This document shows positions 894 through 51,700 of a stretch of 64,000 bases of DNA, in pieces. The stretch spans positions 9,300,001 through 9,364,000 of the forward strand of contig JAKZAN010000007.1 in NCBI GenBank assembly GCA_023053545.1, written 5' to 3'. The notes beneath the pieces are model-generated. The model was not told the DNA's origin. It saw nothing but the letters and a program-made list of their open reading frames with translations, and did no database searches. The position numbers were made by a program, and so were the translations under genes. This DNA is from Lepidurus packardi. Taxonomy: Eukaryota > Arthropoda > Branchiopoda > Notostraca > Triopsidae. The number at the start of each line of letters is the position of its first letter. Positions within the stretch are counted from its first letter, which is position 1.

Positions 894-3800
894 ATGGAAG
901 AAACGACTGCTGGTGCTTTAACTCGTTTGCCAAACCAAGTGAGTTTTTTAGTAGGCTCTGACGAGAACATTTCCACGCCTTCTACGCCGACCCAAGTCAC
1001 TGAAAACCCGTTGGCCAATTTGCCTCTAGTCAGTGAAACCGTCCGAGCGGAAGTGCGGGACGACGACGTGATTTCACTCGGGAGTCAAGATACTATTTCG
1101 GAAGATGGTTTCGGAAGTGCTGCTCCACCGGCAGAAAAAGCCAAGAAGTCGATAAGGTATCACACCAGATGTATTTATTTACTTTTTTTGTTCTGCTGAC
1201 TTGTAGATCTTTTCTTTCAGTGTAACTTTTTATCAGTGGAAAAGGTTCTAGTTGAAAGATCCCATATAGTGTCGATTATTCTTATCGCGAAGGGTGTTGG
1301 GTGTCTTTAGTTTAGACAAAAAGAAAGGAAAGAAATATCAACAGTTCTCGTTTGTGTTTTTGGCAGAGCGACCATGTCCCAGATTCACATGCGAGCACAT
1401 AAAAGTACTTCAGAATTTAAAGAAATGACTGTTGCGACGCCGGAAGAGTTTGTTCGCAAATTTGGGGGCAACCGAGTAATCAATCGGGTAAGTTTGTTTG
1501 ATTTTAAAGCGCAGTTGAATAAGTTTTAATTATTGTTTGGCGTTTGGATTGTTTTTAGGTGTTGATTGCTAACAATGGCATTGCTGCGGTTAAGTGCATG
1601 CGATCTATAAGACGCTGGGCGTACGAAATGTTTAGGAATGAGCGAGCGATCCGGTTTGTGGTTATGGTTACTCCAGAAGACTTGAAAGGTATGAATTATC
1701 TGGTTTATTAGCTAAGACGAACTTAATTAAGTGTCATTTTGGGGGGGTTTTCTTGTGGTATAGCCAATGCGGAGTACATTAAAATGGCGGACCATTATGT
1801 GCCTGTACCAGGCGGAAGCAACAATAATAATTACGCCAATGTGGAGCTTATTATTGATATAGCGAAACGGATGCAAGTCCAGGTAAAACCTTCTTTATTG
1901 GCTATCCGAATTTCACCCCTGTTTCCAAGCAAGCGAAGGCGTTATTTGTTTTCATTTCAAAAGTGATTGTATTTAGTGTAATTTACAATAACTATAAGAA
2001 TGCACAAAACTGAACAGTACTTTGAAATACCAAGAATGCTTGGTTGGCAGATTTCGTTGTTGACATATTTTGGAAGTAGACTCCGCCTCCCAACCCGGAA
2101 ACTTGTAGGGTTTTTACCCTCTTATTGATAGTTTTCATAGTTTTGTTAAGATCTTACCACATAATTGATTATTTACATAATTGATCCTTAAGTACATTAA
2201 GCTGGATTTTATTCTTAGTGGATATGTCGAAAGTTTGCGTTGGGCTGTTTTCGTTTTAAAAATAGGATTTCGAATGACTTGCGTAAGATAAGCGGTTTCC
2301 TCAGTCCGAAACCGCATCCTTTGGTTAGCGTACCTTACGCTTCAGCGGGTCGGACCGTAAACAGCGGTTTTGGCGTGAATCGAGCGTCCTAGAATGTTCG
2401 CACTGAATAAAAAACTGATTTGGAGCGTATAGTGAATGTTTGCGTATACATGAATGCCTACGCAAACAAGATGATTCATTATAGTTTTCTAAAAAAAGGT
2501 ACTTCCATGCCAAATAGGACGTTTTTAAAATTTTAAATCTTGCGTAGACAACAATGAATTAAGAAGCTTGTTTTACAAGTCTGGTTTTGAGAAAGAACGT
2601 TCGAAGCCGAAAGCTTTGTCCCTACCTGTCTTTTAGACTTTAACTGTCTTGATATTTGTATCATAGGGTGTGTGGGCAGGATGGGGTCACGCCTCCGAGA
2701 ACCCGAAATTGCCAGAATTACTCACCAAGAACAATATTGCATTCTTGGGACCACCTGAAAAGGCCATGTGGGCCTTAGGCGACAAAATCGCGTCGAGTAT
2801 TGTTGCCCAAACTGCGGATATTCCAACTTTACCTTGGTCTGGCTCAGGTAGTTCATCCGACTTCCCCTTTCTTAAGCATATTAACGACAAATTTCGTTTC
2901 TTAAAAAAAAAACATCGTTTCTAGGTTTGAAAGCAGAGTTCAAGGACAAGAGAATCAAAATCTCCTCTGATCTGTACAAAAAAGGATGCGTGGAATCAGT
3001 GGAAGACGGTTTGCAAGCTGCTCAAAGAATCGGGTTCCCTGTTATGATTAAAGCCTCGGAAGGGGGCGGGGGCAAAGGCATTCGTAAGGCGGAAAATTCT
3101 GAAGATTTCCCCAATTTGTTCCGTCAGGTAAAGCTTCTGTTCCTCTATTTTCTTTACTTTAAAACGCGCTTTCATGACGATGTTTTGTGAAAAACAACAG
3201 GTCCAAGCGGAAGTACCTGGCTCACCCATCTTTATAATGAAGACAGCCAGCTGCGCCCATCACTTAGAAGTGCAATTAATGGCAGATCAGTACGGAAATG
3301 CCATCTCCTTGTTTGGCCGCGATTGTTCTATTCAACGTCGACACCAGAAGATTATCGAAGAAGCCCCTTGCGTCATCGCGAGCCCGGAAATCTTTGAAAA
3401 AATGGAAAAAGTAATTAATTTAATAATTAAAACTCACATTTTTTTCCATTTTTTTTTCAATTTGAAAATCTTTGAAAAAATGGGAAAAGTAATTAATTTA
3501 ATAATTAAAACTCACATTTTTTTCACTTTTTTTTTTTCAATTTGAAAATCTTTGAAAAAATGGGAAAAGTAATTAATTTAATAATTAAAACTCACTTTTT
3601 TTTCACTTTTTTTTTTTTTCAATTTGAAAATCTTTGAAAAAATGGAAAAGTAATTAACTTAATAATTAAAACTCAAATTTTTTCACTTTTTTTTTCAATT
3701 TGAAAATCTTTGAAAATGTTTGAAAAAATGGAAAAAGTAATTAACTTAATAATTAAAACTAAAATTTAGTTCACTTTTTTGTTTCAATTTGAAAATCTTT

Positions 3801-6800
3801 GAAAATCTTTTTTAATAATTAAAACTCAAATTTTTTTCACTTTTTTTTCAATTTGAAAATCTTTGAAAAAATGGAAAAGTAATTAACTTAATAATTAAAA
3901 CTCAAATTTTTTCACTTTTTTTCAATTTGAAAATCTTACTTAATAATTAAACTAATTAATCTAACTTAATAATTAAAATTCAAATTTTTTTCACTTTTTT
4001 TTCAATTTGAAAATCTTTGAAAATGTTTGAAAAAATGGAAAAAGTAATTAACTTAATAATTAAAACTAAAATTTTGTTCACTTTTTTGTTTCAATTTGAA
4101 AATCTTTGAAAATCTTTTTTAATAATTAAAACTCAAATTTTTTTCACTTTTTTTTCAATTTGAAAATCTTTGAAAAAATGGAAAAGTAATTAACTTAATA
4201 ATTAAAACTCAAATTTTTTCACTTTTTTTCAATTTGAAAATCTTACTTAATAATTAAACTAATTAATCTAACTTAATATTTAAAACTCCAATTTTTTTCA
4301 CTTTTTTTTTCAATTTGAAAATCTTTGAAAATCTTCGAAAAAATGGAAAAGTAATTAGTTTAATAATTAAAACTCAAATTTTTTTCACTTTTTTTTTTTT
4401 TTTCAATTTGAAAATCTTTGAAAAAATGGAAAAGGTAATTAATTTAATAATTAAAACTCAAATTTTTTTCATTATTTTATTTTTTTTGCATTATCACAGG
4501 CTGCAGTTCGATTGGCTAAAATGGTGGGATATGTAAGTGCGGGAACGGTGGAATATTTGTATGAATCGGACGGGAAATTCTATTTCTTGGAACTCAATCC
4601 GCGTTTGCAAGTGGAACATCCTTGCACGGAAATGGTTGCTGATGTAAATTTACCTGCAGCTCAACTTCAGGTACTGGTTCTGTCTCCCAAAGTTAACAAA
4701 ATAATAATGTTACTTAAAAGTATTACAATTTGCGTCCTGTTTTATAGGTTGCTATGGGAATCCCTCTGTACAGAATCAAGTCGATTCGATCTTTATATGG
4801 AAGTGATGTATGGGACGAAAAGCCGATTAATTTTGACATTCCGTTGCATAAACCCAGACCCTGGGGACATGTTATTGCAGCGAGGATTACTAGTGAGAAT
4901 CCAGAAGAAGGTGAGATACTTCATTGATTAATCATTTCTTGCACTTTATATGCTAAAAATTACTTTAAAAAAAAAAATATATATATATATAAAAAAAATG
5001 AGTGTAATAATTTGTTTAAAAAGTTTATAATCGTTTTGGGGCTTTTTTTGCTTCCTTTTAGGGTTCAAACCAAGTTCTGGGACGGTGCAAGAGCTGAACT
5101 TTAGATCGTCGAAGAATGTTTGGGGTTATTTTAGCGTGGCAGCCTCAGGTGGTCTGCATGAATATGCTGATTCGCAATTTGGGCACTGCTTTTCATGGGG
5201 AGAAGATCGTGAAGTAGCTCGAGAGTGAGTTTTTCTTCTCATTTCGTATCTTTCTATTTTTATTTTATTTTAATTGAGTTTCATTTTTGTTTTTATTAGG
5301 AATATGGTGATTGCCTTGAAAGAATTGTCGATTCGGGGTGATTTTAGGACAACAGTAGAGTACTTGATCACCTTGCTCGAAACGGAAGCTTTCCAACGAA
5401 ATGACATTAGCACCACATGGTTAGACGCCATGATTGCCGAGCGAGTTAAGACGGAAAAACCGAATCGTTTGTTGGCAGTCATCTGTGGTTGCTTAAATGT
5501 AGCCGACCAAGCGATCCTCAACACGTTCCAGACATTCCAAAGCTCTCTCGAACGGTAATATCCTCTTTTACAAATACTAAATAAAGAATGAAGTATAAAA
5601 ACGAAAAGAAAGGAAGAGTTTTTGTTTAAAAAAACGACGATTTGTTTGTAGGGGACAGATTCTGCCAGCCTGCGCTCTGTCTAATTCAGTGAATCTTGAG
5701 CTGATCAACGAGGGAATCAAGTACCAAGTCACAGCTAGCAAAACTGGACCCAATTGCTACTTTCTGCTCATGAATGGCTCTTACAAAGAAGTTGAAATGC
5801 ATAGATTGGCTGATGGAAGTAATATTTTGGTTCAAAATGATAATATTGATGATTTTATCTCTGGAATTTCAACTAAAAACGAATTCTTCGTAGGTTTGCT
5901 GCTTTCAGTGGACGGAGCCAGCTATAATACGTACATGAAGGAAGAAATTGATCGTTACCGAGTAGTAATTGGCAACCAAACGTGCATTTTCGAGAAAGAC
6001 AATGATCCCACGATCCTTCGTTCACCTTCAGCAGGGAAACTATTGGGATATTTAGTAGAAGAAGGCGGACATGTTCAATCTGGTCAGGCCTACGCCGAAA
6101 TTGAAGTAAAAAATGAAGAAATTTTCGAATAGTCTATGTATTTTAATTTTTTATTGATTTTTTTGAAGGTTATGAAAATGGTGATGACGTTAACAGTGAC
6201 CGAGCCAGGCTGCTTGTACTACAACAAACGAGCAGGCGCAGTTTTAGACGCTGGCGTTATTATTGCCCATTTAGACTTGGATGACGCGTCACGGATCCAA
6301 AGAGCACAGTTATTTACTGACAAATTCCCTGAAAATGAAAGCAGTTTGCCTTTTTACGGCGATAAACACAGCCAGGTCTACCAAGCCTGTCGAATGCTGC
6401 TCGATAACGTGCTAGCAGGTAAAATTGCCAAAATTAAAAAAAGAGATCATTTCAAATAATTGCGTTTCATTAAAAAGGCTACTGTCTTCCTGATCCGTTC
6501 TTCCAAGCCAAGCTAAAAGAAACCATTGAGAAGCTGATGTCGGTCTTGAAAGATCCGAGTTTGCCATTACACGAACTTCAAGTGAGAAAATGAGAAATTT
6601 CTATTGAAATTCAAACAAAAAAAAAACTAAAAAAAAGTTTAAGAATATGTTGGTATTTTTAGGAAGTTATTTCGAGTATTAGTGGAAGAATTCCAGCATC
6701 GGTTGAGAAGAAGATACGGAAATTATTAGCGCTCTATGCTAGTAATATCACATCCGTTTTGGCTACTTTCCCCAGCCAACAGATTGCCAGCGTTATCGAC

Positions 6801-9800
6801 ACGTAAGGTTTCAAGCTTTTGGCGAGAAAGAAGATTCAAAGTGGGCGTTTTTACATATATATTTATGTATTTTTGGTTTATTTCGCTAGGCATGCGGCTA
6901 CTCTGCAGAAACGCGCAGATCGGGATGTGTTTTTCCTCACGACTCAGGGAGTGGTGCAATTGGTTCAGCGATATCGTAACGGGATTCGCGGGAGAATGAA
7001 AGCAGTCGTCCATGATTTGCTCAAGCAGTATATTAGCGTGGAAAGTCAGTTCCAGCAAGGCCATTACGACAAATGTTTGGCGACTTTGAGGGAGAAACAT
7101 AAAGACAATATGACCACTGTCGTTAATACGGTTTTTTCGCACTCTCAGGTTTGATTTTTCTTTCTTTTTTTTTTTTAGAGAAATTAATAGGAATAAAATT
7201 GAGTTTAAAGTTTTTTTCGGGGATTTTTGCAGGTGCAAAAGAAGAATTTGTTGGTTACGCAACTGATTGATCACCTTTGGAGCCATGAACCGGGTTTGAC
7301 AGACGAGCTGGGGAATATTCTGAAAGATCTGACCACTTTGAATCGAACGGAAAACGCTAGAGTGGCATTACGAGCTAGACAAGTAAGAAATGCTGGGATT
7401 TAAAAAAAAAAACGGTTTGATTTGGATTTTTTCTTTCTTGCGGGGGATATGTAGGTCCTTATAGCGTCGCATCAGCCAGCTTACGAGTTGAGACACAACC
7501 AAATGGAGTCCATTTTCTTGTCGGCGATTGACATTTACGGTCATGACTTCCATCCGGAGAATCTGCAGAAATTGATCATGTCCGAAACGTCGATTTTTGA
7601 TGTACTGCACGACTTTTTCTTCCACCAAAACAAGGCTGTCCGCATGGCTGCCCTTGAGGTAAATCTTTTGCAGTTATGTGGGTAGCAATTATGATAATAT
7701 TGTGCAATAATAAGATTTCTGCGGTAATCATTTATGCAGTATAGTTCTGCAATAATAGTATATGTTATATATTTACAGTAATATTCTGGTAACATTTTTG
7801 CAGTAATAAGAAATTTTGTTGCAGTTATATTGTTAGGTTTGTGCAGTAATACGTGCCTTCATACGCAGTCATTACTTATTCAGGAGAGCCTAATTTCTGC
7901 GCAATGTTCTTTAAATCCCTGGATTGATAGTCTACCTAATTATATTCACATCCCTGCAGCCATTTAACGTTATTTTGTATTTCTTCCTACTATTACTGCA
8001 GTAATATTCCCTATTTCTGAAGTAACACTGCGAAATCTTTGCAGTAATACTCTTACAATCCACTCTACAGCAATACTTGCAATATGCTTGTACAAATAAT
8101 CTATATTCCTTATTTCTGAAGTAATAACTCGAAATCTTTGCAGTAATGCGCCTACAAATCCTCCTTGCAACAATAACTACATGCGTGTTTGAACAATCTT
8201 GAACTCATGCGTAATCGGATTAGTGATATTTTGCAGAAATATTTCTAATATTTCTGAAAGAAATTTGTATATTATTTATAATATTTCTGAAAGAAATTTG
8301 TATAATATTTCTAATATTTCTGAAAGAAATTTGTATAATATTTCTAATATTTTTGTAATTTGTAAATTTCTAATATTTCTGAAAGAAATTCTGCAGAAAT
8401 ATTTCTAATATTTCTGCAGCAACTAACTTAATTCTCCTATTTCCGTTTATTCAGGTGTACGTCAGACGTTCTTACACATCGTACGACTTAACTTGCCTTC
8501 AACATAAGGAAGTCCAAGGCGATGTCTGTGTAGTGCAGTTTGAATTTCTGTTACCTTCTTCGCATCCCAACAGGTGAGTTTTTTGTGCTAGATTAAAAAA
8601 AAGAATCGATAGGAAATCATTACGCGAAATTATTTCAATGATCAGCAAATGAATGACAAGAGGCCTTAAAAACGTAAAATAATCTTATGAAGATTAAATT
8701 GAGAAATTATTTCTTCTAGGATTCCGCATAATAAGAGCCAAGGTTCTTTGTGTCACATTCAATCCTTCGACGAGATCTCCAACTTGCTGGAATTACCTAC
8801 AGATCTAGAAAACTGTCAGCGAACGGGCTGCATGGCATCCTTTGTTAATTTCGACACTTTCACAAAAAATTTCGAAGAAGTCATGTCCCTCTTCCAAGCC
8901 TCCGCCCCCTCCACGCCAAGTTTGCAAGACGTGGATTTTGCCGAAGAATTAACCATGGGTGGAAACAGCAACCGTTTTGTCTCTGTCAGCATGCCCTCCA
9001 CTTTCGCTGAAGTAGGTATCTTTGAAGTCGAAGAACTTGAAACTCAAGACAAGGTGAGCCACGCCTTGCTGGTGTGCAGCCAAAAAATTCCATTTTGTTA
9101 GTTCCCGCACGGTCTCCCCCCAAAAAGGACCTACCTGCGTTAAACTAGCTTTTTTTGCAGTCATTTCCGAAATTTTTTATTATTTTTGCAGTAATTTTCC
9201 ACAATTTCTAGTAGTTCTCAGTAGTTTTCCAAAATTTCTTGTAACTCTCAGTTGTTTCCGAAATTGTCTTGGAATTTCGTAGTAATTTTCGAATTTTTTT
9301 AGTGACTAGCAGTAATTTCAGAAATTTTCTAGTAACCGCAGTCATTTCAGAAATTTGTAGTAATCGCAGTAATTTCAGAAATTTTTTAGTAATCGCAGTA
9401 ATTTCAGTAATTTTTTAGTAACCGCAGTAATTTAAGAAATTTGTAGTAATCACAGTAATTTCAGAAATTTTGTAGTAATCGCAGTAATTTCAGAAATTTT
9501 TTAGTAATCGCAGTAATTTCAGAAATTTTTTAGTAATCGCAGTAATTTCAGAAATTTTTTAGTAATCGCAGTAATTTCAGAAATTTGTAGTAACCGCAGT
9601 AATTTCAGAAATTTTGTACTAATTGCAGTAATTTCAGAAATTTTGTAGTAATCGCAGTAATTTCAGAAATTTATAGTAATCGCAGTAATTTCAGAAATTT
9701 TGTAGTAATCGCAGTAATTTTAGAAATTTTTAGTAATCGCAGTAATTTCAGAAATTTTGTAGTAATCGCAGTAATTTCAGAAATTTGTAGTAATCGCAGT

Positions 9801-12800
9801 AATTTCAGACATTAGTAGTAACCGCAGTATTTCAAAAATTTGTAGTAATCGCAGTAATTTCAGAAATTTTTAGTCATCGCAGTAATTCCAAAAATTTATA
9901 GTAATCGCAGTAATTTTAGAAATGTTGTAGTAGTCGCAGTAATTTAAGAAATTTTGTAGTAATCGCAGTAATTTCAGAAATTTTTTAGTAATTTCTGAAA
10001 TCTTCTAGGAATTTCTGAAATTTTCTCATAATTCGCAGTAATTTCAGAAATTTTATTGTATCGCAGTAATTTCCTAAGAATTCTAGGAATTTTCCAAATT
10101 TTCTAATAATTCGCAGTAATTTTCACATTTTTCTATTTATTTCGCATTAATGTCCGAAATTTTCTAGTAATTCGCAGTAATTTCCAAAACTTTGTAGTAA
10201 TTTCGACCGATTTTTAAGTCAATTTCGTAGGATTGTTTCATTAATTTTTAGAATGTCCAGCAATTTTTAGAATGTTTTAGTAATTTAGGATTTTTACTTA
10301 ATTTAATTAAGAAATTACGTAAAACCCCATCTAATATTTGCCCGTAGTTAGGAAGGTTAACGCAGAATGCTCCTTTTTTGAACCTCTGGTGTTGTGCACG
10401 TTATTACTGTTCATTTTCGTTTTTGTGTCGCATGCACGCATGCGTAGTGTGTCGTTTGTAATCCCTTCCTCGGAAACTTTCGTTCCTAACTTCCCGTAAT
10501 TTTTGGTTAACGCAGAGTCGGGAACCAATCCACATCTTGAACGTGGGTATCCGCTGCGACGAGGTTATTGACGACAGCATGCTGAGCGAGCGATTCACCT
10601 CTTTCTGCTCTGACAAACGCGACGTACTGGTTGAAGGCGGGATCCGGCGGTTGACGTTCGTCGTCTTCTACCGGAAACAGCACCCCAAATTCTTTACCTA
10701 CCGGGCGAGGGACAGTTTCGCCGAAGATCGGATCTACCGCCATCTGGAGCCTGCGTTGGCTTTCCAGTTGGAGATCAACCGCATGCGAACGTACGAGCTT
10801 GAGGCTTTGCCGACGTCCAATCAGAAAATGCACTTGTATCTCGGTAAGGCGAAGGTGGCCAAAGGCCAGGAGGTGACCGACTACCGGTTCTTTGTTCGGT
10901 CGATCATCCGACACTCGGATTTGATCACGAAAGAAGCATCCTTTGAGTACTTGCAGAACGAAGGCGAGAGGTTACTGTTAGAATCCATGGATGAGCTGGA
11001 GGTGGCGTTTTCGCACCCGTACAGTCGTCGGACGGACTGTAACCATATTTTTCTGAATTTTGTTCCCACTGTTATTATGGATCCAGCTAAGATCGAAGAA
11101 AGTGTCAGGAATATGGTTATGAGGTACGGGCCGCGGCTCTGGAAGCTCCGCGTCTTACAGGCGGAGCTCAAAATGATCATCCGGACGGTGAACAACTCGA
11201 AAACGGTGCCGATTAGGTTGTGTTTGTCTAACGAGAGCGGGTACTACCTGGATATTTGCTTGTACAAAGAGGTGACGGATCCGCGAACGGGGATCGTCAA
11301 GTTCGAAGCCTATGGACCGCGACACGGAGCGCTCCATGGGTTGCCCATATCGACGCCGTACATGACCAAAGATTACTTGCAGTTAAAGCGGTTCCAGGCC
11401 CAGTCGAACGGTACCACGTACGTGTATGACTTCCCAGAAATGTTCCGCCAGACGGCGAAGAAACTATGGGACGAGTACTTGAACTACCGGTTGCGAGCAG
11501 GGTTGCCGCCAGGGGAGCGACCCTCCCAACTCATGACGTCAGTAGAGCTGGTAGTTGACGTGGAAGGTAACCTGGTAGAACAAAAACGACTACCGGGCGA
11601 GAACGACATCGGGATGGTCGCATGGCGAATCACCGTCTACACGCCAGAGTTCCAGGAAGGTCGGAATATCATCGTTATTTGTAACGACATTACCTTCATG
11701 ATTGGATCGTTTGGACCCAAGGAGGATCAGCTGTTCCTCTTGGCGTCTGAAATGGCACGAAAGTTGAAGGTCCCGCGGATTTACATTGCGGCCAATAGTG
11801 GGGCGCGGATTGGGTTGGCGGAGGAGATCAAACACTTGTTTCGGGTCGCTTGGGTGGACGTCAAAGACCCCGAGAAGGGCTTCAAGTACTTGTATTTGAG
11901 TGCCGAGGACTTTAAGAAGGTCTCGGCCATGAATTCCGTCCGCGCAGAGCTGATCGAAGACGACGGTGAAGCGCGTTACAAGATCACTGACATTATCGGT
12001 AAAGACGACGGGTTAGGAGTGGAGAACCTACGTTACGCTGGCATGATTGCCGGAGAAACCTCGCAGGCCTACCAGGAAATCGTTACCATGTCCATGGTTA
12101 CTTGCAGAGCCATTGGAATCGGCACGTACCTGGTTCGCTTGGGACAACGGGTCATCCAGATCGAAAACTCTCATATTATTTTGACGGGGTTCGGGGCTCT
12201 GAACAAGTTACTCGGAAGGGAAGTGTACACTTCCAACAATCAGTTGGGTGGCGTCCAGATCATGTACAACAATGGTGTGTCCCATCGGACTGATGCGCAC
12301 GATTTGGGTGGGATCTTAGGCTTGCTACGTTGGCTGTCGTACATGCCCAAGTCCAAAGGTTCCGCTTTACCTGTTTGGCCCGTGATGGACCCACTGGATC
12401 GCGACGTCCAGTTTACACCTACCAAGACTCCTTACGATCCGCGTTGGATGCTGGAAGGTAGGATCAACCCGCACCACTCCAACGAGTGGGAGAGCGGGTT
12501 CTTCGACCGCGGATCCTTCGATGAAATCATGGCGGTCTGGGCCCAAACTGTCGTTTGCGGAAGAGCGCGACTCGGCGGCATTCCCATCGGAGTGATCGCG
12601 GTCGAAACCCGTACCGTGGAGCTTCACCTCCCTGCTGATCCGGCCAACTTGGACTCGGAGGCCAAGTTGGTCTCCCAAGCCGGCCAGGTTTGGTTTCCGG
12701 ACTCGGCGTACAAAACCGCGCAAGCGATTCAAGATTTCAACCAAGAAGGGCTGCCGCTAATCATCTTTGCCAACTGGAGGGGGTTCTCGGGGGGCATGAA

Positions 12801-15669: not shown

Positions 15670-20997
<5,328 letters not shown>

Positions 20998-22312
20998 TGT
21001 TTACCTAAAATTAAGTCGGTTAAAACTGAAGCAAGAAAATTGGACTTGGAAATGCTTACTTTGGTTGCCTTTACTTTAATGAATGGCTTATCAAGCAGCT
21101 TTTAAGGCTGTGAACGGTACATTATTTAAAGGATTTGACAAACCACGTTTGAAGAGTCGAACTAGACAAATTTGTGAGCTTTTTTCATACACGAACTTGT
21201 CGACAATGTTTGGATTTAGACAACGCTCTCGTTAGGAAACGTTCAAAACTTGAAGCTTGGAATTAACACATTTTACCGTATCACAACGCCATCTAGAGTG
21301 TGTATAATAAACTCGTTCAATAGTTTTTTTTTAAGAAGTCTAAATAACTTTAAATATAGTTATAATTTGTTTTGTGAGCTGTATTTGAATTTTATTATAA
21401 TGCAGCTTTAACTCGTAGAGAAACGCCGTAGTTTAAAGCTATTGATGCGTATTGGGTTTCTAAAACCTATGATTTGTTTAGCAGCCAATGGTAGCAAAGT
21501 GATTCATGGTAAGTCATGAATCGCTTTCCCCTGACTTCGTGTTCGCGGTTTACCGTTAATGAACGTAAGTCAGACGCCAACCGCCTGATGGCTCTGGGGC
21601 CCGTTTTCCGTATTTATTTAATGTTTTAACAAGAATAAGGAAGCGGTGTAAGGATGAAGAAAGCTCTCTTGTATTTGGATTGTAAAATTTAGAAAAAAAT
21701 CTTGTTAAAAGGGTCACATAATTATACAATTATACATAACACGATACAATTATAATTATACAATTGAAAACATAACATTTACTTTTAAAACTGTTACTTT
21801 TAGGGATAAAACCAAGAAATCAATTGCTTTTTAAGCAATTACTGGCTAACATCGCTTCACAGTAGATGTTGGCAGCAATAGTGATGTACTTTGTGCTTAT
21901 CTGCCAGATAAAAGCCGCTGAGAGCGGTTCATCACGTTAATTCCGCGCAGACTTCGGTTGATTCGGATAACTCTGCGCAGTAATAAGATGCTCAAGCCAG
22001 TACTTCATCTTTTCTTCACTGCACACACATAAATTCAGAGATTGCCTGATCATCTGCACCAGGGAACGCTTTAGGAAGGTCATTTATCGTGAAAATAAGG
22101 GCAAATTCACTTCACTAAATGGCCAAATTAATAAATAATTTTAGCTTTGACAAACAACCCGTTCAGGAGAGATATTAATTTGGCAAATAGCTGTACTCCA
22201 CCCTTCAGTCTAGAAGGAAACAAAACGTTCAATAGCCCTGGAAGAGTCGTATTTAGGACTTCACTGGGAGCGGTTCCTTTTTTTCCGGGCAGAAATAGCA
22301 AGTTCTGTAGCA
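20998..22312. other. Intergenic region between PI3K and the first receptor gene
   Basis: This holds the divergent 5' flanks of PI3K (-) and the first gustatory-receptor-like gene (+). No further gene is supported. CGCCATCT at 21287-21294, about 290 bp upstream of the PI3K ATG, recurs near other gene starts. From roughly 22010 the sequence resembles the upstream flank of the second receptor gene, so the receptor duplication includes upstream DNA. Confidence 0.6.
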
Positions 22313-23773
22313 ATGGGTGTCCTAGTGAAGAGTACTTCTGCGGTTAAAGTGACGCAACCCGAAACTTTAACCCATGCATTGCGTTGGTGGCTGAGAAGTT
22401 GTTTTATTCTAGGTTTACCTCTCAGTAAACCAACCTACGGATTCCGAGTCAGAGTGTTTACATTGGCTGTTTTGGTCACCGATTTAGCAATCGGACTAAC
22501 TGTTTTAGGTTTTGCTACCAACAAGTATATTACTGAATTTCTTGGTACCGTTACCTTACAACTTAGCACCGCCTTCTCGCACTACAACTCCTTTATGATG
22601 ACAAGTGTGGTGCACGCTATCCTAGTCTGGAAGCTGGATGAGTTGCGCGAAGTAATCTGGGATCTAGACCAGCATATTACTGTTGACTTGAAGCTCAAGA
22701 AATTTCTGCAGATTTCTACCGTACTGATCCTGATCTTTCTAACTATTACAGTGAGTTGCCCTAAAAGGCTGAAGAAATTAAAAAATTTATTTCGGAAACT
22801 TAATGCTTATATTACTGCAGCAATCTTCCACAAATACTTTGGCTGCTCTTACGATACTAGACGATGTCTATCATTGGGTATCACCATGGCTATTTCCCTT
22901 CACCTTTTACTGGGCGAGTTTGATGATTTACCCAGTTATTACTTGCTACACTATTACTGCACTCATTATTGTTTTGGGTTACCAATTTAAATTGCTGAAA
23001 GAAGCTATGCATTCGGAATCCTTCATTTCTTGGGATAAGATCTACGAACGTCATGTCGAACTCTATACTTTGGCCGGACGACTGCAGCAATGCTTCGACC
23101 TAGCTCTTACAGTAATACTGTCCGGTACTCTCGTCAGCCTTTGTTCGAATTTCTTTTACATGACCGATGAATTATTGTCCAATAACCTTTCTCATTTGGC
23201 CGAGTTTACTCTACTTTTACTGGACTCGTGCATGCGCTGTGTGTGCCTCTGCATGGCTGCCAATTACTTACAAGACCAGGTAGCAACGAACAAAAGAATT
23301 GAGAAGAAATAATCCATATTTCTGCCCCCCAAAAGGCCAAGTCAATTTCATTGGAACTGGCGCGCGTGGACATGAGAAACCATGGCACGATCCAAACCAA
23401 AGAAGTAATTTCCCTACAACTTTCTAAGTATTACTGAAGCTATAGTTTCATCTTCTGCAGATCGTGCGAAGATTTGCGGAAAACATTCGTAACCTGGAAT
23501 ACCTGGCCACCTTTTCCGTGGGCGGATTCTGTCAGCTGGGCAAACCCTTGCTCTTAGGGGTAGAAATCCCAAATCTCAATTTGATCTTTTACCACATTAC
23601 TGGCTTAACATATTGCTTCACCTTGACAGATTTTGGCAGTCGTCGTATCGTACTTTGTCCTCCTCTGTCAACTCAAAGTTACCGAGATTGGAACCTGTAA
23701 AAATTCTACCGAAAACTCGACTTAGAGATACTTCAGAAATCCAGTAATCCACCTTTCTGCAGAAATCCGTAAG
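22313..23773 (+). CDS. Gustatory-receptor-like seven-transmembrane protein, copy 1 (402 aa)
   Basis: Exons 22313-22750, 22821-23279, 23336-23404, 23461-23559 and 23630-23773, all phase 0. The exon pattern (long first exons, then short C-terminal phase-0 exons) is typical of arthropod chemoreceptor genes. The predicted protein is strongly hydrophobic with about seven membrane segments. The last exon reads ILAVVVSYFVLLCQLK, matching the TYhhhhhQF signature of the gustatory receptor family in TM7. These receptors act as ligand-gated cation channels in chemosensory neurons; the ligand cannot be inferred. An extra A in the final exon (run of six As at 23699-23704) extends the tail to ...KKFYRKLDLEILQKSSN and beyond, compared with copy 2. 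Acceptors read ACTGCAG or TTCTGCAG. Confidence 0.82.
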
Positions 23774-24255
23774 AAATAACTTCTAACAATACTAGCCTAT
23801 TTTCAACGCTATGTAAACACTATGAAACTCACCAAAGATCAATAGAAAAGGTGTTTGCACTAGTTTTAATGCTTCAATTTGTTTATCAAAGTGGACGAAA
23901 GCTTTTTTTTAGTTCATTTCTGCTTCATATGAAAGGAATGTTCAAGACAGCAATTCATCTTTTCTTCATTGCACATGTAGAAAAATAGAGATTAACTGAT
24001 TATGTTCACCACGGAACGCTTTAAGAAAATCAATTATTGTGAAAATGAGGCGAAATTCGCTTCAGTAAAAGGACAAAGTAATAAATTAATTATTTATTGG
24101 TAAAGAACGACCTCAATAGAGCTATTACTTTAATTGCATTACTCCACCCTTCATTCTGCAAATAAACAAACGTTCAATAGCCCTGGAAGAATCGTATCTA
24201 GGTCTTCACTGGAAGCAGTTGTCTTTCGTGGGAAGAAATAGCAAGTTCTGTAGCA

Positions 24256-25670
24256 ATGGGTGTCCTAGTGAGGAGTACTTCTGCGGTTAAAGTACCGCAA
24301 CCCGAAACTTTAACCCATGCTTTGCGTTGGTGGCTGAGAAGTTGTTTTATTCTAGGTTTACCTCTTAGTAAACCAACCTACGGATTCCGAGTCAAAGTGT
24401 TTACATTGGCCGTTCTGATCACCGATTTAGCAATGGGACTAATTGTTTTAGGTTTTGCTACAAGCAAATTTATTACTGAATTTCTTGGTACCGTTACCTT
24501 ACAACTTAGCACCGCCTTATCGTACTACAACTGCCTTATGATTACCAGTGTGGTGCACGCTATCCTAGTCTGGAAGCTGGATGAGTTGCGCGAAGTAATC
24601 TGGGATCTAGACCAGCATATTACTGTCGACTTGAAGCTCAAAAAATTTCTGCAAATTGCTACCGTGCTGATGCTGATCTTTCTAACTATTACAGTGAGTT
24701 GTCCCTAAAAGGTTGAACAAAATTTTAAAATTTATTTCGGAAACTTAATGCTTATATTACTGCAGCAATCTTCCACAAATACTTTGGCTGCTCTTACGGT
24801 ACTAGAAGATGTCTTTCATTGGTTGTCACCATGGCTATTTTCCCTCACCTTTTGCTGGGCGAGTTTGGTGATTTACCCAGTTATTACTTGCTACACTATT
24901 ACTGCACTCATTATTGTACTGGGTTATCAATTTAAATTGCTCAAAGAAGCTATGCATTCGGAATCCTTCATTTCTTGGGATAAGCTCTACGAACGCCATG
25001 TGGAACTCAGTACTTTGTCCGGTCGCTTGCAGCAATGCTTCGACCTACCTCTTACAGTAATATTGGCCGGTACTCTCTTCAGCCTTTGCACGAATTTCTT
25101 TTACATGACCAGCGAATTAATGGATAATAACCTTTCTCATTTGGCCGAGTCTACTCTAATTTTACTGGACTTGATTATGCGCTGTGTGTGCCTGTGCATG
25201 GCTGCCAATTATTTACAAGACCAGGTAGCAACGTACAGAAGAATTGAGAAGAAATAAACCATATTTCTGCCTCCAAAAAGGCCAAGTCAATTTCATTGGA
25301 ACTGGCGCGCGTGGACTCGAGAAACCAAGGCACGATCAAAACCAAAGAAGTAATTTTCTTACAACTTTCTAAGTATTACTGAAGCTATAGCTTCAACTTC
25401 TGCAGACCGTGCGAAGATTTGCGGCAAACATTCGTAACCTGGAATATCTGACCACCTTTTCCGTGGGCGGATTCTGTCAGCTGGGCAAACCCTTGCTCTT
25501 AGGGGTAGAAACCCAAAATCTCAATTTGATCTTTTACCACATTACTGGCTTACCATATTGCTTCAACTTGGCAGATTTTGGCAGTCGTCATATCGTACTT
25601 GGTCCTCCTCTGTCAACTCAAAGATACTGAGATTGGACCCTGTAAAAATTCTACCGAAACCTCGACTTAG
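24256..25670 (+). CDS. Gustatory-receptor-like seven-transmembrane protein, copy 2 (386 aa)
   Basis: Exons 24256-24693, 24766-25224, 25281-25349, 25406-25504 and 25575-25670, phase 0 throughout and co-linear with copy 1. The protein is highly similar to copy 1, starting MGVLVRSTSAVKVPQPE, with the TM7 motif SYLVLLCQL near the C-terminus. A five-A run at the end of the last exon, against six in copy 1, leads to an early stop (...CKNSTETST), so the tail is 16 residues shorter. Both copies look intact, with no internal stops, so both may be functional. Family assignment rests on the exon pattern, hydrophobicity and TM7 motif. Confidence 0.82.
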
Positions 25671-39071: not shown

Positions 39072-39857
39072 TTATTTCTTGTACGTTCCAGATGATTGGA
39101 CACTAGAAGCGTCGAAGGATTCTACACCGTCGCCGAAACTAGCATCAGCGCCATCAAAGGAGCCCATTGGAGTTGGAGTGGGGTAGCTGGAAGCTGCTGG
39201 GCCATAACTGGTGGGCATTGGGGCAACCATGGGAGTAGCACCGTAGCTGGAAGGCATGGGATTAGCTCTGTAAAAGGTAGGAGGAATCATGGGTACAAAG
39301 GGGGGTTCGTAAGAAGGCATAGGAGGAGCGGAAGATGTCATGGGCGGAGTGTAAGAAGGGACTGGGGCAGAATATGTCTGTGCTGAGTCATAGTATGTTT
39401 GTGCTGAGGCGGAGTAAGTAGGTACTACGGAGGAATAAGTAGGTACTGGGGCGGAGTAACTAGGTGCTGGGGCGGAGTAACTAGATACTGGGGCGGAGTA
39501 ACTAGGTACTGGGGCGGAGTAAGTAGGTGCTGGGGCGGAGTAACTAGGTGCTGGGGCGGAGTAAGTAGGTGCTGGGGCGGAGTAAGTAGGTGCTGGGAGG
39601 GAATAAGAAGGTGCTGGAGGGGAGTAAGAGGGCGCAGAGAAGGAGTAGGAAGTCATCGGTGGCATAGAATAAGGTGCTGCATAGGATGGGAACGGCCGAG
39701 GACGCATGGGAATGTTCGAAGAGCTATATAAAGGATTCGACGGCGGTTTGTAGGGAATAGAAGGAATAACGTAAGATGGCAGTACGGCAGCAGTACCATA
39801 CTGAGCCACAGCAACGGCCGCCAGGGCGGTCACCATGATCGGTATGAATTTGTTCAT
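39072..39857 (-). CDS. Secreted Tyr/Ser/Pro-rich repeat protein, cluster copy 1 (261 aa)
   Basis: A signal peptide (MNKFIPIMVTALAAVAVA, cleavage likely before QYG) is followed by a low-complexity body. The middle is an eight-residue repeat close to YSAPAPTY or YSAPAPSY, about ten copies. The tail is richer in Gly, Asp and Ser and ends TYKK. There is no globular domain and no cysteine pattern. Composition suggests a structural extracellular protein such as cuticle, silk, adhesive or egg-coat material, but nothing fixes which. The single coding exon is preceded by a 5' untranslated intron (39859-39974), with donor GTAAGA and acceptor ATTTATAG directly before the ATG. A TATA box lies further upstream. 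Confidence 0.8.
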   Translation of the reverse strand: MNKFIPIMVTALAAVAVAQYGTAAVLPSYVIPSIPYKPPSNPLYSSSNIPMRPRPFPSYAAPYSMPPMTSYSFSAPSYSPPAPSYSLPAPTYSAPAPTYSAPAPSYSAPAPTYSAPVPSYSAPVSSYSAPAPSYSAPVPTYSSVVPTYSASAQTYYDSAQTYSAPVPSYTPPMTSSAPPMPSYEPPFVPMIPPTFYRANPMPSSYGATPMVAPMPTSYGPAASSYPTPTPMGSFDGADASFGDGVESFDASSVQSSGTYKK

Positions 39858-40053
39858 TCTATAAATAATAAAACAAGTATTATAAGGCGATATTCGACAA
39901 AGAAATGTAACTGAAAGTTAAATTGTTAAGTTTGAAATGTTTGAATTAAGAAAATGTCACTTAAGTCATCTTACTTTGCTTTCGATGATGAGCCGACGTG
40001 TAGTCAATTGTTATTCAAAGTGGACTTGATGATTCGTCTCAGACCCAGCCGGT

Positions 40054-41459: not shown

Positions 41460-41987
41460 TTATTTCTTTCCGTACGATCCAGCGGATTGGTCACCTAATC
41501 CAGCAGAAGAATCGAATGATCCAGCGCCGCCATCCATACCAGCATCAGCGCCACCGTAGGCCATTGGTGGGGGACCAGAGTAGCTTCCATGGGATGACAT
41601 GGAAGATCCGTAAGAGGGCATCGGGGGAGGTGCAGAGTAACGGCCACCACCAGACATAGCACCACCTCCGAAACCTTCAGCTCCACCTCCCATAGCTCCG
41701 AAAGAGCCCGAAGAGCCATAAGATGGCGCGGATCCGTAGCTACCGCCACCGGAAGGCAATGAGTGAGACATCCCTCCTCCGAAGGACGCTCCACCGCCAT
41801 AAGAGGGCACCGGAGGGGATCCCCCATAAGATGGGCGCATAGAGTAGCTTGGAGAACCGTAGGAAGGAGACGGCCGGGGTTGGTAGGAAGGGCCCTTGCC
41901 GTAAGATGGCATTGGCGGAGGAGCCCCGTACTGAGCCACAGCAGCGGCCACCAGGGCGATCACCATGGTCGGTATGAATTTGTTCAT
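41460..41987 (-). CDS. Secreted Gly/Ser/Tyr-rich protein, cluster copy 2 (175 aa)
   Basis: A signal peptide MNKFIPTMVIALVAAAVA, close to that of copy 1, leads to QYGAPPPMPSYGKGPSY and a body rich in Gly, Ser, Tyr and Pro with PSYG and SYGG motifs, ending SYGKK. No globular domain is seen. A structural extracellular role is likely, but the material is unknown. The body is nearly identical to copy 3, whereas the signal peptide, 5' untranslated intron (41989-42104) and TATA region match copy 1. The polyadenylation signal is at 41382-41387. Confidence 0.82.
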   Translation of the reverse strand: MNKFIPTMVIALVAAAVAQYGAPPPMPSYGKGPSYQPRPSPSYGSPSYSMRPSYGGSPPVPSYGGGASFGGGMSHSLPSGGGSYGSAPSYGSSGSFGAMGGGAEGFGGGAMSGGGRYSAPPPMPSYGSSMSSHGSYSGPPPMAYGGADAGMDGGAGSFDSSAGLGDQSAGSYGKK

Positions 41988-42183
41988 TCTATAAATAATA
42001 AAACAAGTATTATAAGGCGATAGTCGACAGAGAAATGTAACTGAACGTTCAATTGTTAAGTTTGAAATGTTTGAATTAAGAAAATGTCACTTAAGTCATC
42101 TTACTTTGCTTTCGATGATGAGACGACGTGTAGTCAATTGTTATTCAAAGTGGACTTGATGATTCGTCTCAGACCCAGCCGGT

Positions 42184-43484: not shown

Positions 43485-44012
43485 TTATTTCTTTCCGTAC
43501 GATCCAGCGGATTGGTCACCTAATCCAGCAGAAGAATCGAATGATCCAGCGCCGCCATCCATACCAGCATCAGCGCCACCGTAGGCCATTGGTGGGGGAC
43601 CAGCGTAGCTTCCATGGGATGACATGGAAGATCCGTAAGAGGGCATCGGGGGAGGTGCAGAGTAACGGCCACCACCAGACATAGCACCACCTCCGAAACC
43701 TTCAGCTCCACCTCCCATAGCTCCGAAAGAGCCCGAAGAGCCATAAGATGGCGCGGATCCGTAGCTACCGCCACCGGAAGGCAATGAGTGAGACATCCCT
43801 CCTCCGAAGGACGCTCCACCGCCATAAGAGGGCACCGGAGGGGATCCCCCATACGATGGGCGCATAGAGTAGCTCGGAGAACCGTAGGAAGGAGACGGCC
43901 GGGATTGGTAGGAAGGGCCCTTGCCGTAAGATGGCACTGGCGGAGGAGCCCCGTACTGAGCAACAGCGACGGCCGCAAGGGCGAACACCATCAGAGAAAC
44001 GAACTTATTCAT
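43485..44012 (-). CDS. Secreted Gly/Ser/Tyr-rich protein, cluster copy 3 (175 aa)
   Basis: The signal peptide MNKFVSLMVFALAAVAVA differs from those of copies 1 and 2, but the mature sequence from QYGAPPP onward is almost identical to copy 2. The start at 44012 is preferred over the in-frame ATG at 44027, because the intervening bases form an acceptor (TTTTTCTAG) directly before the 44012 ATG. The TATAAATA box is at 44190-44197. The promoter is diverged from those of the other two copies, so expression may differ. Confidence 0.82.
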   Translation of the reverse strand: MNKFVSLMVFALAAVAVAQYGAPPPVPSYGKGPSYQSRPSPSYGSPSYSMRPSYGGSPPVPSYGGGASFGGGMSHSLPSGGGSYGSAPSYGSSGSFGAMGGGAEGFGGGAMSGGGRYSAPPPMPSYGSSMSSHGSYAGPPPMAYGGADAGMDGGAGSFDSSAGLGDQSAGSYGKK

Positions 44013-44189
44013 GCTAGAAAAACACAAAAAACAATAGTTAAATCAAAGAATATTTCAAACCCGCCAAACTGGCTCAAAATGTAATTAAGTTTACAGCTCA
44101 AGTGATCTTACTTTGCGTAGGAAGATGAGGAGCCCTGTCTTCAACTGTTACTCAAAGTTGACTTGATGATCTGTCTCAGGTCGAACCGT

Positions 44190-45739: not shown

Positions 45740-48700
45740 TTACAAACTGAATAACTTGGTATGGGGCGACATGTACAGAATGCCGAACGTTGCCCCCACG
45801 GTTGAAATAACAAAGACCCAAAGTAGAAATCTATACAAAAAAGAGAAAAAAGTGCAGAAATTTGACAGTCAAAGAAATAATTTCTGCAGCAAGTGAAAAA
45901 CTGTCCTCACCTGTCAATTACTAAAGCCACTTGTTGCCATTCCAGCTTAATAGCGTCCCGTCTGTCTTGCTCAGCTAAACGCAAGTCGTTCTTTTCAATG
46001 GTTTGGTACACTTTCTGCAGAACACGCAGAAATTGCCGCTCGAAGTTGTCTAGCGAGTGAGCTGGCGAAGGAGCATGTGAAGTGAGCGTAGTAAACCTTT
46101 TTTTTCACGGAAAAAAATAAGAAAAAATACTAAAACTGTTTAATTTACTTTCCTTTAACTTGGAAGAAATGGGCAGAAATATGAAGAAATTGTAAAAAAA
46201 TAGACTCTACCCCGGCACTCCGCCATTAGTCTCGTTCCTCATCGCCTCCGCTTCGTACCGCTCCACCAACTCGATGGGGTTCGACGAATAGTCCTAATGG
46301 TCGAAGAAATAAACATTGCTGCAGACCGAAGATTTTTCTTTTTAAGGAAAGAAAAATGAATAACACAGTCATACATACCGTGACTCTGCTTCTTGAGCTC
46401 GGGGACGCTTCAGGTACGTCTAAGCGTATGCACAGAAATTTGGCCAGTACTCCAAATACCACCCGCTTAACTAGCGGCGGTACTTGCCTGCCGCGCATTC
46501 CGCGATGATGAATGTTCAGAGTTACTACCGAAAGACCCGTAGCGAATGAAACTAAGGATATGGTAACTCCGTAATACAGCCCTGAAAATCCCATTTTAAA
46601 GAAATCCGTCAGAATTTATTATTTTATTTATTTTTTAAATATTATAAACCAAAAAATGGCTGGCTTTACCTATGAGTGGCAACTTATCCGAGGTGGGTGG
46701 CATGCTTTCGCCGATCACCATTAAGAACACAGTCATGGACAACAAAGTAGTAATACCTAGCGTAACCTTCTCCCCGGAATCCGACGGCATATAAAAGCTC
46801 ATGAGCGCGATTCCAGTTATGAGAACGCACGGCAGGATAAGATTAAACACTAAGCGAAATGAAGAAATAAACAAAGGATTCCAACGATGTGGAAAACAGG
46901 CTTGAGTAGGGAATTTCTGAAGAAATATACCGTAAAATAAAGGTCTCCGTTTTAAAACAATGTGGTAAGTAATGTCCGGATAGGGTTCGTCGCAGCAGGA
47001 ATAGAAAACTTCGTTGCGTTCAACAATCAAATCCACTAGATCCCATTCGCCGTTTGGTACGTAGTTCGTTAAATCGGGTTCTTCCGTTTGTATGACCAAG
47101 TTCACCTAAGCATTACTTAAAGTTAGCCAAATATCTGCCCGAATGAACAGCAATATTTCAGCATTTCTGCAGTAATTAAGGCAATACTACAATATTTCTT
47201 TGTTGCGAAAAGGGAAGAAATCCAAACTCGACTGAAAGTTAGATATTTTGCATCTGATTCGAGAACACATGAACAGAAATAGAGGAATGGAAGCAATGTT
47301 GAAATTCACCGCAGAAAGATTCAAAATTTCTGCAGTTATATAAAGAACTTCTTGAGGAATCACTTGTTTGAGAAGTAGTATTTATAAAATCTAAGAAATT
47401 TTTACCGAAATTCTTAATGTGATTCTTTGCACACATACCATTCCATACCTGCTCAATTTCAGGCATTGCTGCAGTAATATTAAAGGTGCTTGACAGATAA
47501 TTTCTTAGAGATAACTTCGTCTCAAAGTAACGAGTATAAATCCAATAAAATTATACCTAAATCTATTGGAGAACACATGAACAGAAATAGAGGAATGGAA
47601 GCAATGTTGAAATTCAACGCAGAAAGATTCAAAATTTCTGCAGTTATACAAAGAACTTCTTGAGGAATCACTTGTTTCAGTAGTAGTATTTATAAAATCA
47701 AAGAATTTTTACCCAAATTCTAAATGTGATTTTTTGCACACATACCATTCCATTTCTGCTCAATTTCAGGCATTGCTGCAGTAATATTAAAGATGCTTGA
47801 CAGATAATTTCTTAGAGATAACTTCGTCTCAAAGTAACGAGTATAAATCCAATAAAATTATACCTAAATCTATTCGAGAACACATGAACAGAAATAGAGG
47901 AATGGAAGCAATGTTGAAATTCAACGCAGAAATATTCAAAATTTCTGCAGTTATACAAAGAACTTCTTGAGGAATCAATTGCTTCAGAAGTAGTATTTAT
48001 CAAATCTAAGAAATTTTGATCGAAATTCTAAATTTGATTTTTTGCACACATACCATTCCATTTCTGATCAATTTCAGGCATTGCTGCAGTAATATTAAAG
48101 GTGCTTGACAGATATTTCTTAGAGATAACTTCGTCTCAAAGTAGCGAGTATAAATCCAATAAAATTATACCTAAATCTATTGGAGAACACATGAACAGAA
48201 ATAGAGGAATGGAAGCAATGTTGAAATTCAACGCTGGAAGATTAAAAATTTCTGCAGTTATATAAAGAACTTCTTGAGGAATCACTTTTTTCAGTAGTAG
48301 TATTTATAAAATCAAAGAATTTTTACCCAAATTCTAAATGTGATTTTTTGCACACATACCATTCCATTTCTGCTCAATTTCAGGCATTGCTGCAGTAATA
48401 TTAAAGATGCTTGACAGATAATTTCTTAGAGATAACTTCGTCTCAAAGTAACGAGTATAAATCCAATAAAATTATACCTAAATCTATTGGAGAACACATG
48501 AACAGAAATAGAGGAATGGAAGCAATGTTGAAATTCAACGCAGAAATATTCAAAATTTCTGCAGTTATATAAAGAACTTCTTGAGGAATCAATTGCTTCA
48601 GAAGTAGTATTTATCAAATCTAAGAATTTTTGATCGAAATTCTAAATTTGATTTTTTGCACACATACCATTCCATTTCTGATCAATTTCAGGCATTGCTG

Positions 48701-51700
48701 CAGTAATATTAAAGGTGCTTGATGGATAATTTCTTAGAGATAACTTCGTCTCAAAGTAACGAGTATAAATCCAATAAAATTATACATAAATCTAAGCTTT
48801 CCTGCAAATCTAAAATATTTCTACAGGAAAAGTCTGTTTTTTCCGTTTGTATGACCAAGTTCACGTAACTAGTAATTCAGTACCTAAATATCTGCCCGAA
48901 GGAATAGCAATATTTCTGTTGTTATGACAGGAATACTTTCCAAACTAGACTGAAATTGACGTGTTGAATCTGATTTAAGAAATCAGATTATCATTATTAA
49001 GCTTATCAGAAATAGAGGAGAAGCAAGCAATATAGCGATGCAACGCAGAAATATTCAAAATGTCTGCAGTGATAAAAAAATTCTTCAGGAATAACTTGTT
49101 CCAGGAGTAATCCTCGAATTTTATCAGAATTCAGATTTTAGCCAAATGTTTTAGTTTTAATTTTATTTAATTTTATGTTCTGCAGACATACCCATTCCTT
49201 CTTAAATTTAGGCATTGCTGCAGAATTACTAATAATTCCTGACATGAATACCAAACATTTCTTTAGAGCTCACTTCTTCTCCAAGTAAGAGAACAAATCT
49301 ACTAAAATTACACAGAAATGTAAGCGTTGCTGTAAATATAAAGAATTACCCGCAAACCGTCATATGTCCAGCTCGAGAACTTCATCTTACATGTTTGCTA
49401 AAAAAAAGAGAAAAACATTCTTACATTATTACTGCGTGCCTTAGAAATAAGAATTATAGCTACCAAGTCAAAAGGAAAATATTCCACAGAAATTCCACAC
49501 GAGGACTTAAAGATGGCGCTGCTTAACCACGTCAGATTCCCGTCCGAGGAAACAATCACGTTTGTACTAACAATCGCCGAGTTGTATTGGGAATCTGCAC
49601 TGCAATGTGAACAGAAATAAACAGTCCCTTGTCGCTTACCAGAAACGTTCCTTTTATACAGTATCCCCCGCAAAAAAAGACTTACTTGTTATAGAGAATA
49701 ATGTCTGGCTTCCAGACCTTCTCGGCTGGGATCCGAACCACATGAATTCCCCCGAAATCCGAGGCATTCCATAGCAAATTGTAATCGATCCACATCTAAA
49801 CGCACCGAAAAGTGATTAACGAAGAAATACAAGCCCCCTTTGAGTCTTTCCCCCCCTCAATCTACCCCTTGACTGTCTTTTCGAACAATTGGGTTACGCT
49901 GCGACTTGAGTAAGACAAATGTCTGACAACACGCGACTTTGAAGCCTCTTTCCGGCTCGTCGTGCTGGAAAACGGTATCTTTGGTCTGTGTCTGCAGATC
50001 GACAGCCCAGCAAACGGGTCATCTGGTTCGACGCAGAATTACCCCGAGACAAAGAACTTGGGGCTCCCCAGAAAAGCAGAGAGAGAGAGGGGAAAATGGC
50101 TCACACAAAAGGACTGTAAATCAAGAGGGTTAGAAGGGATTTCTCAACGAACGGAGGATCAGGAGATTAACTCTACCTTAAGCATAACGAAGTTGGCCCC
50201 GCAAGATTGCCCCAGTACAGCCCCCCCATCTAGTAGAAGCCCTAAGAACCCCATTTCCTTTACCTGATTGAGCCAGCAGTTGGTCGTCAAGATCTGGTTC
50301 CGCTCATCCTGGAGAGTTTGAGAGGAAGAGAAGAAATAAGGCAGAAATATTACTTCCGTACGAACTTGTAGTTTTCTTAAAAAAAAATTGTTTCTGGATG
50401 GACCACTTTAAACTCTGTTCTTCTTTACAGCTGTTGACTCTGAAGGGAACAAAAATGAAGATGGGAATTCGAAGAAGGGAAGAATTTTAGCATAAATAGA
50501 GCAGGCAGTATTGCTGCAGCATCGGAAACTGGGAACGCCTCAGGGGACCTACACTTTACAAGGTTTAAGAAGGAAGCAAGGTTTTGACTCGAATCGTGCG
50601 TTTCTTGCCAAATCGTTGCAATCTGCTTCACACTCAATTGCTCTCGGGCAAGTACTATGCCAACCCAGCAAGCCAGAGGAATTTCTGCAGTCAAGCTTAA
50701 TAAATCGTCCCCTCGGCCTACCTCACTGCATGGGTCTGAAAGCAAGTGAGCAGATTAAAGCTTACTCGTCCAACATAAAAAAATGTCTGAAAATGTGTTC
50801 CTAACTTAAAAAAAAGAAATTTAAAAGAAAGAAATAAAACTGCAGAAATGATGTTATGTGTACTGAACACCTCAGTGCACATTGTTGCAACGCTGGGAAA
50901 GCAATATTCCTGAATCATTTCATTCATCGCTTGCCAAGTCTGAGGTATAGCGTACATTGCTGCAGGGCTGCGGAAGATATTGCTACAAATTCTCATCTGA
51001 TACGCTACCAGATATTTCTTTGGCACTTTTGATCTTGAGAAATTTCTGGAGAAATTTACTAAGCGTATTACTACGACTATCTAGATTTCTTAAAGAAATA
51101 ATACACATTTCTGCAGGAATTTTCAATTCTTCTGCAGAAATTTTTATTTCTGCAGAAATTTTTCTTCTGGCAGATATGTTTATTTCCGCAGACATTCTTA
51201 ATTTTGCAATTACTATTGGTTAAAGATCTAGATAAATGAATATTACTGTCCTGAATTTCTGATGAAAAGTTTATTTCTAACTTAGTTTTTGCAGAAATTG
51301 GTGCTATTGTCTTCATTTCTACAGAAATGGGCATTACTGAGCTAAATGTTCTCGAAAGAAATATCGCTTTTTATTTTTCCGCCTAAATGAAAATTTGGGT
51401 TTACTATTCCTGAAGAAATTAGTGTTCCTACATAAATTAGCATTACTGCGATAAATTTCTTCAGTAATTCAGATTATTTTACCTAACTATCTGCATAAAT
51501 TGATACTACTGCGCTAAATTTCAGTAAAAATAGAATGTGTGCTTCTAAGTTTACTGATGCTATGCTAACTTTGCGGCAGAAATGCATATTACTGTGACAA
51601 ACTTTTCTGTTTACCTTAATAACATCTACGGCCAGTCTCAGGCTTTGGTTAAAAAATTCCCATTAACCACTATAAATATCGCTATCTTGCTGCAGACATT

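Follow-up and report, generated by a model that had tools for sequence, protein, structure and literature searches.

A tandem repeat spanning an exon–intron boundary makes up nearly all of an intron in the acetyl-CoA carboxylase gene of Lepidurus packardi

In a 64,000-nucleotide stretch of the genome of the notostracan Lepidurus packardi (contig JAKZAN010000007.1, positions 9,300,001 to 9,364,000 of the forward strand; hereafter the window, whose own numbering is used below), intron 7 of the gene for acetyl-CoA carboxylase (ACC) is occupied by a tandem array, and the repeat unit of this array contains the last 23 coding nucleotides of exon 7 together with the splice donor GTAATT. We think it likely that a local minisatellite, born at the exon–intron boundary, has enlarged one small intron, and that the first donor is used, with 3411 to 4499 removed as one intron. 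Most likely, the repeat expanded by accident, and the case belongs to a known kind.

The ACC gene occupies the first 13 kb of the window on the plus strand; the assembly that carries the window comprises 108.6 Mb in 344 contigs. A gene model was built by hand for the first 21 exons and 20 introns, and the translated, spliced biotin carboxylase domain aligns to PDB chains titled 'Acetyl-CoA carboxylase 1' at an E value of about 1e-295, with ACC2 chains in the PDB also matched; an initial annotation, made from the letters of this DNA, had named both the gene and the domain, and rightly so. The junction between exons 7 and 8 (3410/4500), which we place on the basis of this homology, is gapless in the four PDB alignments shown (three to ACC1 and one to ACC2). 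Thirteen of the 20 ACC introns are 59–97 nucleotides long, and only four, intron 7 among them, exceed 700 nucleotides. A query of 135 ACC residues against the same genome hit two exons of this locus; the six remaining matches were at only 44–55% identity, so no second ACC was seen.

3201 to 3410, plus strand: ACC exon 7, 210 nucleotides, phase 0, in the biotin carboxylase domain (gene model and PDB alignments)
3411 to 4499, plus strand: intron 7, 1,089 nucleotides, nearly all tandem array (gene model and repeat analysis)
4500 to 4670, plus strand: ACC exon 8 (gene model and PDB alignments)

By merged Tandem Repeats Finder (TRF) rows, the array extends from 3388 to 4487. The exon end TCTTTGAAAAAATGGAAAAA followed by GTAATT occupies 3391–3416, exactly where the initial annotation had put it, with the donor at 3411. 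When the window was searched with the exon-end motif TTTGAAAAAATGGAAAA at up to two mismatches, ten matches were found, all of them within 3393–4433, where 0.18 would be expected, and none of 100 shuffles reached this count. These ten matches, and the 23 coding nucleotides common to the intronic copies, bear out the earlier claim that the array copied a coding exon end plus its splice donor; that the junction is repeated also stands, but the count of about a dozen does not, as there are nine decoy donors and the additional repeat units in the array lack a donor. The array and its donors are laid out as follows.

3388 to 3410, plus strand: first copy of the array, coding, with the exon end AAATCTTTGAAAAAATGGAAAAA that the intron repeats
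3655 to 4261, plus strand: higher-order repeat, with 300-nucleotide copies at 3655–3954 and 3962–4261, 307 nucleotides apart and 98% identical
3411 to 3416, plus strand: real donor AAA/GTAATT, score 5.99, U1 pairing −1.8 kcal/mol, fixed by ACC homology
3489 to 3494, plus strand: decoy donor 2, 78 nucleotides downstream of the real donor, in frame and without a stop, adding 26 codons
3569 to 4356, plus strand: decoy donors 3 to 9 (3569, 3650, 3737, 3879, 4044, 4186 and 4351), the use of which would lead to a stop at added codon 45
4435 to 4440, plus strand: decoy donor 10, AAG/GTAATT, the strongest donor of the intron and the sole AG/GT

From the real donor to the last decoy, the ten donors are spaced by 78, 80, 81, 87, 142, 165, 142, 165 and 84 nucleotides. 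The intronic copies ending at donors 3489, 3569, 3737, 4044 and 4435 are identical to the coding end at 22 of 23 nucleotides; in those at 3650, 3879, 4186 and 4351, the A run before the donor is one base shorter (15 of 23 when compared without gaps). As all ten copies have kept the same donor hexamer, nothing suggests that the decoys are being purged. Over 43 nucleotides across the junction, the first and last copies differ at one base (AAA versus AAG, both lysine). Five inner copies carry ATTAACTTAA in place of the ATTAATTTAA of the first three copies and the last one, a hint that these inner copies are derived, and the 98% identity of the two 300-nucleotide stretches points to an expansion that continued recently; the unit pair at 3489 and 3569 is 99% identical. 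We take the exon to be the source and the intronic copies to be derived because the residues of the exon end align gaplessly with ACC1 and ACC2 chains in the four alignments noted above. Like a boundary minisatellite, the array has units tens of nucleotides long and overlaps both coding sequence and intron.

Could the length or order of the array be wrong in the assembly? Near-identical copies are hard to assemble, and two units are 100% identical over their aligned stretch. Nevertheless, the copies differ from one another, those at the edges have private differences on both flanks, and a collapsed array would still retain the exon-end copies, so we hold an assembly artefact to be highly improbable. 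DNA and pattern searches of the same genome, in which very common words were skipped, found no copies of the repeat elsewhere, and a dispersed intron-making element (an introner or transposon) is accordingly not supported.

The donors differ in strength and in the consequences of their use. We scored them with a matrix trained on the other 19 ACC introns (the matrices applied to intron 7 thus rest on 19 sites), which gives 8.33 for the last donor and 5.99 for the other nine; predicted U1 pairing is −6.6 kcal/mol for the last donor and −1.8 kcal/mol for the others, and the initial annotation was correct in calling the last copy the stronger donor. With each site left out in turn, eight of the 20 ACC donors score below the real donor of intron 7. 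Sites of this quality are otherwise scarce: only two of 286 unused GTs in the other 19 introns (4,540 nucleotides) score 5.99 or more, compared with nine in intron 7 besides the real donor, and outside the array, of the 674 unused GTs in the gene region, 13 score at least 5.99 and two at least 8.33.

The second donor has the frame, spacing and freedom from stops that had been claimed for it, and it scores as well as the real donor; in principle, its use could yield ACC isoforms with a functional insert of 26 residues. We regard this as extremely unlikely, as these residues are strongly hydrophobic and would break a conserved biotin carboxylase block that is gapless in the four ACC1/ACC2 alignments, and as donor 2 does not outscore the other donors and falls below the one at 4435. 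From every one of donors 3 to 10, eight in all, translation would reach a stop at added codon 45, as would be expected if the ladder were a regulatory switch in which the use of a decoy leads to unproductive, decayed mRNA and a lower output of ACC. However, an accidental decoy would look identical and nothing points to regulation, so we judge such a switch very unlikely.

On the acceptor side, intron 7 contains 12 AGs; that at 4499 scores 12.34 and the other 11 score between −3.5 and −13.7. The intron, in other words, has one good acceptor facing ten donors. The last donor stands 65 nucleotides before this acceptor, and because that span fits the 59–97 nucleotides of 13 of the 20 ACC introns, we read this end of the intron as its putative original form.

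4435 to 4499, plus strand: putative original minimal intron, 65 nucleotides, similar in length to 13 of the 20 ACC introns and with a single strong acceptor

The last donor also raises the prospect of removal in two steps, in which the AG/GT at 4434/4435 would serve as acceptor for 3411–4434 and as donor for 4435–4499, in either order and with the same mRNA as the result. This AG/GT is the only one among the 12 AGs, it holds the strongest donor at a short distance from the acceptor, and a pyrimidine run of 17 nucleotides lies within 60 nucleotides upstream of it; moreover, AG/GT dual-specific sites have been published and are enriched in tandem-repeat genes (PMC10809524). Nevertheless, we consider two-step removal unlikely. 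The AG at 4434 scores −4.13, a value equalled or bettered by 459 of the 693 unused AGs in the gene (two of the 20 real acceptors score lower), the pyrimidine content of the 20 nucleotides before it is 0.30, and the sole GT within 4435–4499 is 4435 itself, so that no downstream donor is present to define a recursive-splicing exon. Compared with a recursive ratchet point, the site thus has the juxtaposed AG/GT but neither a good acceptor signal nor a downstream donor for a cryptic exon, and it was for the poor acceptor score that recursive splicing was demoted as the main explanation. Also quite unlikely, in our estimation, is that the one 65-nucleotide intron has now become two abutting introns (3411–4434 and 4435–4499) with an exon of zero length between them, the strongest decoy being used in most transcripts and the mRNA being unchanged. 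If there are indeed two introns, a boundary repeat would neutralise its own expansion, since the original AG/GT junction is retained in the last copy; and if removal does take two steps, the strength of the last donor would do no harm, instead of posing a threat.

How, then, might an array born at the boundary have enlarged this intron? We infer an ancestor with an ordinary 65-nucleotide intron after ...ATG GAA AAG, in which a tandem duplication with its left end 23 nucleotides inside the exon would have copied the exon end, the donor and most of the small intron. Growth to about 1 kb, including the recent 307-nucleotide higher-order duplication, may then have come about by slippage or unequal exchange. 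In any tandem duplication, the left flank stays with the first copy and the right flank with the last; here, the first copy would have kept the exon as its left flank and would still be coding, and the last copy would have kept the original acceptor end. Approximately 4412–4499 would accordingly be the original exon end plus the original intron, with everything between being expansion. The simplest reading is that an existing intron has been enlarged, as opposed to a new intron position having been created.

As for splicing, we infer that the first donor would win in most transcripts, as it borders the real 210-nucleotide exon (exon definition) and is transcribed first. Most transcripts would probably join 3410 to 4500, and decoys would be used at a low level, most plausibly at 4435, giving mRNA with a premature stop. 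ACC is essential, and hence correct splicing is needed often enough. In human genes, strength and proximity decide the use of cryptic donors, and decoys are used less in introns than in exons (PMC8964760).

Several observations weigh against this account of the array and its splicing. The closeness of the last copy to the exon copy is not unique: a single difference over the 43 nucleotides likewise separates the exon copy from each of the copies at 3489 and 3569, and beyond the junction copy 2 resembles the first copy more (88%) than the last copy does (76%). Nor does the first donor rank highest; the donor at 4435 both scores higher and would give a typical small intron, and splicing by intron definition should therefore favour it. 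By U1 pairing, the real donor of intron 7 is in fact the weakest of the gene (−1.8 kcal/mol), close to that of intron 12 (−1.9). Predicted RNA accessibility lends the first donor no advantage, being 0.025 within a range of 0.001–0.045 at one setting and, at a wider setting, among the lowest (0.002 within 0.002–0.012). Finally, in human genes the intronic decoys that compete most strongly are depleted in the vicinity of real donors (PMC8964760), so that tolerating equal decoys is not the rule. Two structural explanations were tried and set aside. RNA structure was rejected as the reason for donor choice because accessibility is low everywhere (0.001–0.045), the ranks shift with the settings and give no preference to the first donor; and pairing of the exon end with the first T-tract, seen in a predicted fold of 85 nucleotides, was rejected because 11 of 200 shuffles fold as well.

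Other arrays were surveyed over 254 kb, namely the window plus 19 stretches of ten kb, with cut-offs of at least 150 for score and at least 12 for period. Twenty-four arrays pass, and a flank codon score was computed for all 24, the window array at 9277–10172 being entered as 9189–10202. Capture of a coding exon end was seen in none of the eight of the other 23 arrays that were inspected by eye, with the remaining 15 judged by score alone; among these 15, the array at 39401–39628 lies in an open reading frame (ORF), and at least three have coding-like scores inside (L003 995–1606, L009 1185–1413 and L014 8968–9901). The survey gives no genome rate of boundary capture. Within the ACC gene, tandem arrays are present in three of the four introns over 700 nucleotides. 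In intron 20 (9054–10515), the array at 9189–10202 is a 29-nucleotide tandem repeat with genome matches only there, and its consensus unit has three AGs (CGCAG, TTTCAG and TTTTAG/TTGTAG), an acceptor-like ladder that mirrors the donor ladder of intron 7. Intron 18 (7659–8454) has an array at 8238–8416 together with degenerate GCAGTAAT-like repeats.

Elsewhere in the window, a 24-nucleotide repeat of 29 copies with TTTTTGTAG units (19146–19841, minus strand) starts beside a putative donor CGA/GTAAGA, assigned by eye; about 1.5 kb downstream follows an exon that encodes a PI3K accessory domain. At 47252–48794, five tandem copies of 307 nucleotides (94%) adjoin minus-strand exons of a gene for a ligand-gated ion channel. 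Also on the minus strand, three putative secreted repeat proteins that are related to one another, rich in Pro/Ser/Tyr or in Gly, lie in a row (39072–39917, 41460–42086 and 43485–44042); one of them has a coding repeat of 21 nucleotides at 39401–39628, and the two that were tested gave no match in Pfam. On the plus strand, 22214–23312 and 24202–25257 are neighbouring, very similar sets of membrane-protein-like ORFs, which are probably recent tandem gene duplicates; the one stretch of them that was tested had no match in Pfam.

Intron 7 amounts to a natural competition experiment: one good acceptor is faced by ten donors that are almost alike, nine with equal scores and one with a higher score, and no second copy of the gene was seen. 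The choice of donor here bears on the roles of position, exon context, donor strength and intron length, and the array illustrates that boundary repeats can lengthen small introns.

Among known systems, Zhuo et al. in 2007 reportedly described introns from tandem arrays. A search of the open-licence literature, covering the top of the longer result lists, turned up no title concerned with repeats in ACC introns, which is weak evidence of absence. The closest parallel is with minisatellites that overlap exon–intron boundaries of human genes and that create or change introns and splicing (PMC2812944); the array of intron 7 is like them in overlapping such a boundary. The human cases, however, involve paralogs from segmental duplications and have RNA support, whereas the ACC case concerns one gene, with no second copy seen, and is read from DNA; furthermore, the intron was probably already present in ACC. 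The polyubiquitin gene UBC, with its dual-specific AG/GT sites (PMC10809524), shares a tandem array with splice sites at repeat borders, but its AG/GT sites separate coding monomers, whereas in ACC the repeats are mostly intronic and the AG/GT is in the last of ten. With the ratchet points of recursive splicing (PMC8605326), ACC shares an intronic AG/GT and a strong regenerated donor; it differs in having no downstream donor, a weak acceptor and an intron of 1.1 kb instead of a long one. In the stwintrons of Lipomyces (PMC7138796), a donor is likewise duplicated inside an existing intron, with removal in one step or two; the duplications proposed there are of 4–7 nucleotides and the introns are nested, whereas in ACC a 23-nucleotide exon end plus intron has undergone about tenfold amplification. 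Intron gain by tandem duplication of an exonic proto-splice site (PMC2891723) shares tandem duplication at a splice-site motif but yields a new intron position, whereas in ACC an existing intron would, on the simplest reading, have been enlarged. Repeats that span exon–intron boundaries are thus already a known kind, and the ACC array is another instance of it.

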